Assembly: GCF_013283835.1 (NCBI RefSeq)
Contig: NZ_CP054052.1
Span: forward strand, 1,364,001 to 1,428,000
Reading direction: 5' to 3'
Source: Poseidonibacter lekithochrous
GTDB taxonomy: Bacteria; Campylobacterota; Campylobacteria; Campylobacterales; Arcobacteraceae
DNA length: 64,000 bases
Part shown: positions 13,517 through 40,774 of the stretch, piece by piece
Layout of the letters: each line of letters opens with the position of its first letter
How positions within the stretch are numbered: position 1 is the stretch's first letter
Made by a program: the position numbers and the translations under genes
Notes under the pieces: generated by a model
Told to the model about the DNA's origin: nothing
What the model saw: the letters and a program-made list of their open reading frames with translations, nothing else
Database searches by the model: none

Positions 13517-13539
13517 TAAAAAAATAGTAGGAGAAGCAT

Positions 13540-16371
13540 ATGTCTGCAAATTCATATGAAACTCTAAATGCTAAAGTTGGTAGACGGTCATTTATGAAAA
13601 TGGCTGCAGTTGCCACTGCATTTGGAGTTACGTCATCTTTTGCTAGTACTACTGCGACGAGAAAAGCTACTGAGGAAGAGATTAAAAATCCATTCCCTGG
13701 TTCTAAGATGGTTAAATCTATCTGTACAGCTTGTTCTGTTGGTTGTGGTGTAATAGCTGAAGTACAAAATGGCGTTTGGGTAAGACAAGAGGTTGCTCAA
13801 GATCACCCTGTATCACTTGGAGGGCACTGTTGTAAAGGTGCTGACATGATTGATATGGTTAGATCTGAAGTAAGACTTAAACACCCAATGGTTAAAAGAG
13901 GTGGAAAATGGCAAAGAATTTCTTGGGATGAAGCTTTAGATGGAATTGCATCTAAATTAGAATCTTTAAGAAAAGAAGATGGGCCAGATTCAACAATGTT
14001 TTTAGGATCAGCAAAATTTAATACTGAGCAATCGTATTATTTTAGAAAATTTGCTGCAATGTTTGGAACGAATAATATAGATCATCAAGCTAGAATTTGA
14101 CATAGCTCAACAGTTGCCGGGGTGGCAAACACATGGGGTTATGGTGCTATGACAAATTCTCTGGGAGATATCCAGAATTCAAAAGCAATCATTATATTTG
14201 GAGCGAATCCAGCGGTTAATCACCCAGTAGGATTCCAACATTTTTTAAAAGCAAAAGAAAGAAATAATACAAAAATTATCGTAGTAGATCCTAGATTTAC
14301 TAAGACTGCGGCAAAAGCAGATTATTTTGCACAAATTAGACCTGGTACTGATATTCCATTTATGTATGGAATGTTAAATATCATTTTCAAAAACGGATGG
14401 CATGACAAAGGCTTTATCAAAGATAGAGTTTATGGAATGGAAGATGTAATGAAAGAGGCTAAAAATTGGCCAATTGAAAGAGTTGCAGATGTGACTGGTG
14501 TTGATGCGGATTTAATTGTACAAATTACTAAGCATTATGCACAAAATACTCCAGGTACTTTAATCTGGGCTATGGGTCTTACTCAACATACAAATGGTTC
14601 GTCAAACACAAGAATGGCACCAATCTTACAACTTGCTCTTGGAAACATGGGTGTTGCTGGTGGTGGATGTAATATTCTTAGAGGTCATGATAACGTTCAA
14701 GGTGCTACTGATATGTGTTGTTTATCACACACATTACCAGGTTACTATGGATTAAGTGATGGTTCTTGGAAATATTTCGCTAAGTCTTGGGGTGTTGATT
14801 ATGAATGGCTAAAAGGAAGATTTAAAGATCCTTCTTGGATGAACAAAAAAGGATTCACACTTGCTAGATGGTGGGCTGGAGTTCTTGGTGGTAATCCAGG
14901 TGAAGATGCAATTCATAATGCAGGAACTAGATTAAAAGCATTATTCGTAATGGGTAATGGTATTACTTCTACTGCACAAACTAAAAAAGTAAAAGAAGCA
15001 TTAGATAATCTTGATATTGCAGTATTCTGTGATCCTTTCGTAAATGAAGGTGCAATTATTACTGATAAACAAGATGATGTTTATATTTTACCAGCTGGTA
15101 CTCAATTTGAAACTTCAGGTTCAGTTACAGCAACAAATAGATCTGCTCAATGGAGATCTGAAATTATCAAACCAATGTATGAGTCAAAAGCTGACCAAGA
15201 CATTATGTTTGAATTAGCAAAAAGACTTGGATTCTATGACGAATTAACAGCTGGTATGTTAATTAGAGAAAACAAGAAAGAGTACAAATGGCCTGAGGAT
15301 TGTACTGATGAGATTGCAAGAATTATCAAAACAATTGGTTTAACTGGTTGGACTGCGAAAAGACTTAAAGCGCATCAAGAAAACTGGCATATGTTTGATG
15401 AAGTATCTGGAAGAGGATACGGAAAAATGACTGGTGAGTACTATGGTTTACCATGGCCTTGTTGGACAGAAAAACATTCAGGTTCGCCTTTACTATACAA
15501 CATTAACAGATCTGTTAAAGATGGTGGTATGGGATTCAGAAATAGATTTGGTTTAGAGCACGATGGTGAAGATTTACTTGCGGGTAAAGGTTCAGCTCCA
15601 AAAGGTTCTGTAAACAAAGATGGTTATCCTGAAATTACTAGAGATAACATCGAAGAAGTTTTAAAGATCAAGTTAACTGAAGAAGAAAAGAAAAAAATAG
15701 GTAAAAACTGGAAAGTTGATACTTCAAATATTATTGCTGAAAAATGTATGGAACAAGGTATGGCACCTTATGGAAATGCAAAAGCAAGAGCAAAAGTATG
15801 GACATTCGCAGATCCGATTCCTTTACATAGAGAGCCATTACACTCTCCTAGAGCGGATTTAACGAAGAAATATCCAAACTTTGCTGATAAGAAAAACCAT
15901 TATAGAGTTGATACAAGATATATCTCTGAGCAAACTGCACAAGATTGGGCGAAAGACTTCCCTGTTAACTTAGTTACAGGAAGATTAGTAAACATGAATG
16001 GTGCTGGTATGGAAAATAGAGCATCTAAATATCTTGCAAAATTAACTCCAGAAATGTTCTGTGACATTAATCCTGAATTAGCAGGAAGACATGGAATCAG
16101 AGATGGTTCAATGATGTGGATTCATTCACCTCAAGGAACAAAGATTAAAGTGAAAGCTAAATATTCATTTAGTGTATCAGAAGACAGAGTATTCTTACCA
16201 TTCCACTTTGCTGGTGTTATGGAAGGAGAAAGTCTATTACATAAATACCCAGATGGAACTGCACCATATGCAATTGGTGAAAGTGCTAATACTGTTACTA
16301 ACTACGGTTATGACATTGTTACTCAGATTCCTGAAACTAAAGGTGGTTTATGTCGGATAGAAAGAGCGTAG
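13540..16371 (+). CDS. fdhA: Formate dehydrogenase catalytic subunit, selenocysteine-containing
   Basis: 943 residues read through an in-frame TGA at 14098-14100 (residue 187), which is selenocysteine: it sits in the canonical motif HQARI-U-HSSTVAG. It is a periplasmic Mo/W-bis-MGD enzyme oxidising formate to CO2. A twin-arginine signal (GRRSFMK, residues 14-20) leads, then a 4Fe-4S site with C62, C65, C69 and C97 or C98. The C-terminal molydopterin dinucleotide-binding domain (about 805-943, from NLVTGR) is intact. A plain translation splits it into two pieces, but the continuous homology and a hairpin after the TGA show one gene. The start has AGGAG six bases upstream. fdhB follows ten bases later. 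Adjacent TupABC makes tungsten a plausible metal. Confidence 0.95.
14098..14128 (+). promoter_or_regulatory. SECIS-like element of fdhA
   Basis: After TGA 14098-14100, arms TTGCC (14114-14118) and GGCAA (14124-14128) enclose a GGGGT loop. The loop GGT begins 20 bases after the TGA; in E. coli fdhF the corresponding distance is 18. This is where SelB would bind. Confidence 0.75.
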
Positions 16372-36260: not shown

Positions 36261-37292
36261 ATGAGATTAAAAAACCTAATACTAATCATTTGTTCTTTTC
36301 TTTTAATCATCAATACTTTACAGGCAGAAGATAAAAAAGTTGGTGAATTCTTTGGCGCAAAAAACACCCATATGCCTTCATGGTTTCTAAATAGTTTTTT
36401 AGATTTGGGCGAAGATATTGAAGACTTAGCATCTAATAACAAAAGACTTATACTTTATATACATCAAGATAATTGCCCCTATTGTTATAAGTTCATCACA
36501 GAAAATCTAAGTGATAAAACTACAAAAAATAAAATCTTGAAAAACTTCGGCATAGTTGAATTTAATATGTTTGGAGATAGAGAAATTATAGATATTGATG
36601 GGGAAGAATATACTGAAAAAGAGTTTGCTATAAAATATAAAGTTCAGTTTACTCCTACTTTGATATTTTTTGATGAAGAGGGAAAACAACTCTTAAGGCT
36701 GAATGGTTATATAAATATAAAAGATTTCAATTTAGCCTTAGATTATATCAAGGATAAAAAAGAAAATAGTTTATCTTACAAAGAGTATATAAGAGTTAAA
36801 AAGAATGAAAAACAAAATATGACTTTGATAGATGAACCAGATTTATTTACAAAGACTAGAAGTTTTGTAAGAGAAAGTGATTCTAAAAAAATGGCAATAT
36901 TTTTTGAATCAACAAATTGTAATGAGTGTAAAACCCTACATAATAAACTACTAAAAGATGAAAGAACAAGAGCCTTACTAAAAAAGATGGATGTATATCA
37001 AGTAGATATAAATTCACCAAAATCAATAGTAACACCATCTAAACTAATCACAAAGATAAAAGATTGGACTAGTGAGCTGAATATCACTCATATTCCTACT
37101 GTTATCTTTTTTGATGAAAAAGCGCAAGAGATTATCCGAATCGAATCAAATTTCAAAAACTTTCATTTCCAAAGTATTGTGGATTATGCCGTAAGCAATG
37201 CTTACAAGGATGAAAAAGAGTTCCAGCGATATCTTACTAAAAGAGCAGATGATATTAGAGAAAAAGGAATAGATGTTAATATTTGGGATTAG
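36261..37292 (+). CDS. Periplasmic protein with two thioredoxin-like domains
   Basis: 343 residues with a signal peptide (about 1-22). The first domain has CPYC at 72-75 and cis-Pro FTPT (about 130-133); the second has CNEC at 220-223 and THIPTVIFF. Each is a SoxW/DsbD-gamma-like thioredoxin fold. Two active-site pairs in tandem suggest a reductase or electron-relay role in the periplasm; the partners are unknown. A strong AAAAGGAG precedes the ATG. The next gene starts 40 bases downstream on the same strand. Confidence 0.78.
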   Translation: MRLKNLILIICSFLLIINTLQAEDKKVGEFFGAKNTHMPSWFLNSFLDLGEDIEDLASNNKRLILYIHQDNCPYCYKFITENLSDKTTKNKILKNFGIVEFNMFGDREIIDIDGEEYTEKEFAIKYKVQFTPTLIFFDEEGKQLLRLNGYINIKDFNLALDYIKDKKENSLSYKEYIRVKKNEKQNMTLIDEPDLFTKTRSFVRESDSKKMAIFFESTNCNECKTLHNKLLKDERTRALLKKMDVYQVDINSPKSIVTPSKLITKIKDWTSELNITHIPTVIFFDEKAQEIIRIESNFKNFHFQSIVDYAVSNAYKDEKEFQRYLTKRADDIREKGIDVNIWD

Positions 37293-37811: not shown

Positions 37812-37838
37812 AATTAATTATTACAAAAAGGATTCCAA

Positions 37839-38066
37839 ATGAATGTAGAAATATTCTATTGTGGAGTTTGAAACTATTTGCCAGAAGCTTCTAGGTTAGA
37901 AGAGGAATTAAAAGGTAATTTTTCAGATATAAACATAAAATTAAATGAAGGCTCAGGTGGTATTTTCAAAGTGATTATTGATGATACTGTTATTTTTGAT
38001 AAGTTAGATGTAGAACATAGATTTCCAAATGATGGGGAAATTATTGAAAGAATAGATAAGTTATAA
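37839..38066 (+). CDS. SelW/Rdx-family selenoprotein (in-frame UGA)
   Basis: 75 residues when the TGA at 37869-37871 is read as selenocysteine. The N-terminus MNVEIFYCGV-U-NYLPEA gives a C8-x-x-U11 redox pair at the family position, followed by ASRLEEELK and GSGGIFKV, the Rdx/SelW signature. A plain reading would start only after the TGA and miss the active site. AAGGA sits six bases before ATG 37839. The TGA is followed by a hairpin with a GGT loop. SelW-like selenoproteins are known in C. jejuni. Function of the family is probably thiol redox; the natural partner is unknown. Confidence 0.88.
37869..37902 (+). promoter_or_regulatory. SECIS-like hairpin of the SelW-like gene
   Basis: CTTCTA (37888-37893) and TAGAAG (37897-37902) form a perfect stem closing a GGT loop, 22 bases after the TGA. 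Its loop resembles the GGT loop of the fdhA element. Confidence 0.65.
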
Positions 38067-38692: not shown

Positions 38693-39040
38693 ATGAACGA
38701 AAATATGATATATATATTTATTGCATTACTAGCTTTTCTAGCTTACAAAAAATATAGTCAATACCAAGTATTAAAACTTGTTCCAGATTTGCTAGCGCAA
38801 GGTGGACAAATAGTTGATGTTAGAAGTGAAGAGGAATTTGCCTCATCTTCAAAAGATGGAAGTATAAATATCCCATTACATTCACTTAAAAAAAGAATGA
38901 ATGAGTTAGATAATAAAAAGCCTATAATTCTTTGTTGTGCAAGTGGAAGTAGAAGTGGTTTAGCAAAACGTACTTTGACAGCACAAGGTTTTGAGAATGT
39001 TCACAATGTAGGAACATGGAGAGCTCTTAGAAAGTTTTAG
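38693..39040 (+). CDS. Membrane-anchored rhodanese-like protein
   Basis: 115 residues. A hydrophobic N-terminal helix (about 5-18) anchors a single rhodanese domain: DVRSEEEF, INIPLHSLKKRM and active-site loop CCASGSRSG. Such proteins carry sulfane sulfur or act in thiol homeostasis; the substrate is unknown. The stop lies in a perfect terminator hairpin. Confidence 0.85.
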   Translation: MNENMIYIFIALLAFLAYKKYSQYQVLKLVPDLLAQGGQIVDVRSEEEFASSSKDGSINIPLHSLKKRMNELDNKKPIILCCASGSRSGLAKRTLTAQGFENVHNVGTWRALRKF

Positions 39041-40381: not shown

Positions 40382-40774
40382 ATGAATGAACAAATAAAAC
40401 ACTATGAAGACAAGCTAAAATATGAGATGGATTCTTGGGATTTAAGTGTTGCATTAAAAAACAATGAAAATGTAATTGTTATAGATGCAAGAGCTTCAAA
40501 TGCCTATAAATATGAAAGAGTTCCAAATGCTATTAATATACCTCATAAAACAATGAATATAGATACTACAAAAGATTTAGATAAAGACGCAGTATATATA
40601 TCATATTGTGATGGAATAGGGTGTAATGCCTCAACAAAAGGCGCTTTAAATATGGCTAAACTTGGATTCCAAGTAAAAGAGCTTATTGGAGGACTTGATT
40701 GGTGGATTAGAGATGGTCACGAAACACACGGAGAAAATGCTAGAAAATCTACTGGTGTATCTTGTGCTTGTTAA
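40382..40774 (+). CDS. Cytoplasmic rhodanese-like protein
   Basis: 130 residues, one domain: VIDARASNAYKYERVPNAINIPHK and the active-site loop YCDGIGCNAS, then GGLDWWIRDGH. The C-terminus ends in CAC. It is a sulfur-transferase fold without a clear partner. AGGAG precedes ATG. It stands alone between two minus-strand genes. Confidence 0.83.
   Translation: MNEQIKHYEDKLKYEMDSWDLSVALKNNENVIVIDARASNAYKYERVPNAINIPHKTMNIDTTKDLDKDAVYISYCDGIGCNASTKGALNMAKLGFQVKELIGGLDWWIRDGHETHGENARKSTGVSCAC

Follow-up and report, generated by a model that had tools for sequence, protein, structure and literature searches.

A predicted SelW-type selenoprotein gene with an in-frame UGA codon in an Arcobacteraceae genome

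In the 64,000-nucleotide stretch of DNA analysed here (hereafter the window; positions 1364001-1428000 of a 3.57 Mb genome in one contig), a short reading frame is interrupted by one TGA codon, which raises the question of whether this codon ends translation, reflects an error or a decayed gene, or is decoded as selenocysteine (Sec). Judging from its sequence, the locus is almost certainly a selenoprotein gene of the SelW type (Rdx family) that stands alone, and in it the UGA at 37869 would be decoded as Sec. The features concerned are listed in Table 1.

Table 1. Coordinates of the selW-like gene, its signals and the other selenocysteine-related genes. Positions are those of the window unless a contig (C1) is given.
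Feature	Location	Strand	Details and evidence
selW-like gene, Rdx/SelT/SelW/SelH family	37839..38066	+	75 aa plus stop; PF10262 and TIGR02174 matches
In-frame TGA, predicted to be read as selenocysteine (residue 11, CxxU)	37869..37871	+	TGA in 18/18 Rdx genes; Cys in PDB homologues
Shine-Dalgarno AAGGA, 6 nt 5' of ATG	37828..37832	+	Sequence; AAGGA-like motifs ahead of nearly all homologues
Apical hairpin of bacterial SECIS type (6-bp stem, GGT loop)	37888..37902	+	Covariation, frozen synonymous sites, RNAalifold
fdhA, formate dehydrogenase alpha subunit, TGA at 14098	13531-16371	+	Second selenoprotein in the window
selB	C1:1348090-1349904		298 bits, cut-off 242
selA	C1:1349931-1351250		563 bits, cut-off 268
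tRNA-Sec (selC), anticodon TCA	C1:1351318-1351412		
selD, one in-frame TGA	G000 C1:1352543-1353463		347 bits, cut-off 125

A SelW-type reading frame across the TGA

The gene and the position of its UGA are established by the sequence itself. The frame opened with an ATG at 37839 and closed with a TAA (38064-38066), the TGA being its sole interruption, and with this codon read as U the product was MNVEIFYCGVUNYLPEASRLEEELKGNFSDINIKLNEGSGGIFKVIIDDTVIFDKLDVEHRFPNDGEIIERIDKL. A preliminary description of this DNA had proposed that the in-frame UGA gives C-G-V-U in an Rdx/SelW protein and that a Shine-Dalgarno sequence lies six bases ahead of the ATG; its coordinates proved exact, the Rdx match ran across the TGA, and the AAGGA motif was found where expected. 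C8-G-V-U11 forms a CxxU motif near the N terminus, of which C8 and position 11 were invariant among homologues.

With Cys standing in for Sec, the product matched the Pfam family PF10262 (Rdx) with 67 bits over residues 2-74 (cut-off 22.6) and the NCBIfam family TIGR02174 with 56.2 bits (cut-off 34.2). The score against NF041051 (SelTWH_Campy), also with C for U, was 87.2 bits, 0.8 bits under the curated cut-off of 88. Alignment to Cys-bearing Rdx members, suggested in the preliminary description, placed a Cys at the UGA position in two solved Rdx structures (PDB 3dex and 2fa8); these proteins belong to the same Rdx/SelTWH family by sequence and carry a CxxC at the position of the CxxU, differing in having Cys where a UGA-encoded Sec is predicted here. 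By analogy with its family, the product is most likely a small thiol/selenol oxidoreductase. It is very improbable that the selenoprotein differs from the known SelW type in having a lineage-specific role in Arcobacteraceae, such as one tied to the neighbouring redox or rhodanese genes.

The distribution of the gene was surveyed in 120 genomes, comprising that of the window and 119 relatives; 102 of the 120 were of good quality. An Rdx gene was present in 18 of the 120, with exactly one in-frame TGA in each, and all 18 genes kept the N-terminal strand and the Y-C-x-x-U-[NG]-Y motif. Since the CxxU part upstream of the TGA was found in every case, the possibility raised beforehand that homologues begin only after the UGA was excluded. 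A SelW 99% identical to the one in the window was encoded by the MAG Arcobacter sp. UBA7394, which marks the source of the window as Arcobacter-like rather than C. jejuni, a difference with no bearing on the selenoprotein reading. A SelW with UGA, 55% identical to the window SelW, was also observed on a contig labelled Candidatus Neomarinimicrobiota (L036, JAOLAV010000001.1), possibly through transfer or as a mis-binned contig; its frame contains another TGA close to the C-terminal end, probably the true stop.

The genes around selW encoded a SnoaL-like protein upstream and SUKH-1 and rhodanese proteins downstream. No conserved gene adjoined selW in 15 relatives, so that selW stands alone and its context gives no lead on a substrate. 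A search of a plasmid collection gave no match. Two rhodanese genes were located near selW in the window (38693-39040 and 40382-40774, + strand); of the 15 relatives, only one, from another genus (G011, L051), shared these two genes near selW, where they lay on the opposite side. Two genes upstream of selW, the window encoded a 343-aa protein (36261-37292, + strand) in which two thioredoxin-like domains were recognised.

A conserved hairpin downstream of the TGA

The GGT-loop hairpin that the preliminary description placed 3' of the TGA was present as CTTCTA-GGT-TAGAAG (37888-37893, 37894-37896 and 37897-37902), with the stem beginning 16 nt 3' of the TGA, and its conservation with compensatory changes was established among homologues. 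In an alignment of 21 distinct homologues, pairing was kept in 95.2% of hairpin cells and changes on both sides were seen in 4 of the 6 pairs. Doubly changed cells numbered 12, compared to 2.2 ± 1.2 in shuffles, and the covariation score reached 0.361, compared to 0.137 for shuffled alignments and at most 0.146 with the 3' side slid, placing the hairpin above every shuffle and every slid control. The core four pairs were given independently by RNAalifold, and the first loop G (alignment column 26) was invariant in the 21 sequences. As for the bacterial SECIS check called for beforehand, the locus thus carried a conserved SECIS-type hairpin, with the loop G, at a suitable distance after the UGA.

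Codon usage within the hairpin was also constrained. Counted from the TGA, codons +6 to +8 and +10 (GCT TCT AGG ... GAA) showed 0 synonymous changes in 78 comparisons each among 13 Arcobacteraceae sequences, while other invariant residues varied synonymously, in 48/78 comparisons for Pro +4, 44/78 for Ile +22 and 40/78 for Cys -3. The Arg codon of the hairpin was AGG in 13 of 13 sequences, and AGG is rare: in seven neighbouring genes of the window, it accounted for 5 of the 65 codons for Arg. The hairpin was not unusually stable relative to shuffles (z = 0.61) and single-sequence folding did not pick it out; the case for the hairpin therefore rests on conservation. When the genome was searched with a covariance model made from these homologous sequences, the selW site scored 77.4 bits and the next match 23.7 bits, a ranking that is expected because the selW sequence is part of the model. 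The Rfam gathering scan of the window returned no matches.

Selenocysteine machinery and predicted decoding of the UGA

Absence of the Sec machinery had been named beforehand as grounds for abandoning the selenoprotein reading, and a look-up of selA, selB, selC and selD had been proposed; all four were found in the same genome. They formed one cluster that lies outside the window, close to its edge and at a distance of approximately 50 kb on the upstream side of selW. Among the good-quality genomes, selA was present in 62 of 102, including all 15 of the good-quality Rdx carriers (hypergeometric P = 2.7e-4, not corrected for relatedness). As many selA-positive relatives lacked SelW, the distribution of SelW is patchy. 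In two incomplete SelW-bearing genomes (G007, 86%; G025, 74%), selA was not found, which is most simply explained by the incomplete assemblies.

Two other genes carried an in-frame TGA. In fdhA, the hairpin TTGCC-GGGGT-GGCAA lay close 3' of the TGA, and a plain ORF caller broke the gene into 13540-14100 and 14122-16371; in selD, the TGA was followed by a GGTCC-GGG-GGACT hairpin, read by eye. Both agree with the selenoproteome described for Epsilonproteobacteria, namely Fdh, SelD and SelW (PMC4607533). When the two strands of the window were scanned for a TGA with a nearby Cys and a downstream hairpin, the selW site alone was returned, fdhA being missed because a Cys was demanded within 4 residues.

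A TGA read through without selenocysteine, by a near-cognate suppressor or a code in which TGA means Trp, had no specific support and is very improbable given the complete Sec machinery in the genome, the conserved SECIS-type hairpin, the family members with Cys at the equivalent position, and the TGA that selD and fdhA, both classic selenoprotein genes, also carry. As the preliminary description anticipated for a standard gene finder, the table-11 ORF list contained only a 62-aa piece 3' of the TGA (TTG start at 37878), which would suit a TGA that is a real stop codon or an error of sequencing, in a locus that is a pseudogene or encodes a protein of 62 aa. The chance of this is negligible, as the TGA stood at the same codon in 18 of 18 Rdx genes drawn from several genera and families, each of these genes retained its start codon and the N-terminal CxxU part, and codons and hairpin were under purifying selection. 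The pseudogene, sequencing-error and short-ORF readings of selW were accordingly rejected on the conserved TGA.

For the selenoprotein reading, knowledge of the family suggests both Sec insertion at UGA 37869 and redox activity of the product. Ribosomes would start at ATG 37839, and SelB carrying Sec-tRNA-Sec would bind the hairpin at 37888-37902, so that Sec would be inserted at the UGA in place of the end of translation. The predicted product would be a 75-aa protein with a thioredoxin-like fold and a CxxU redox motif.

Relation to known Campylobacterota SelW

SelW genes have been described in Epsilonproteobacteria, some of them wholly missed by annotation, together with a SECIS hairpin of 5/6 bp that is common to them and in which one G is invariant (PMC4607533). 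The preliminary description had stated that SelW homologues are established in C. jejuni, and the literature bears this out: C. jejuni SelW was listed as a short predicted selenoprotein (PMC1242214), and the full-length protein extending past the Sec site has Ribo-seq and MS/proteomic support (PMC11955535). Like the gene described here, C. jejuni SelW (CJnc60) and those of other Campylobacterota (NF041051) encode a small Rdx protein with a UGA-encoded Sec and a hairpin shortly after the UGA, and often go unannotated (PMC4607533, PMC11955535). Compared with C. jejuni SelW through its published description only, the window gene showed no difference in kind. The locus fits the published picture of Campylobacterota SelW and nothing in it departs from that picture: it belongs to a gene family already known from these bacteria, whose genes tend to be missed by gene finders.

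UGA decoding in Campylobacterota SelW is already established biology. What the present locus brings is the correction of an annotation in which the gene is probably absent or cut short, and an extension of the known family by well-supported members of Arcobacter-like origin for which SECIS covariation is seen.
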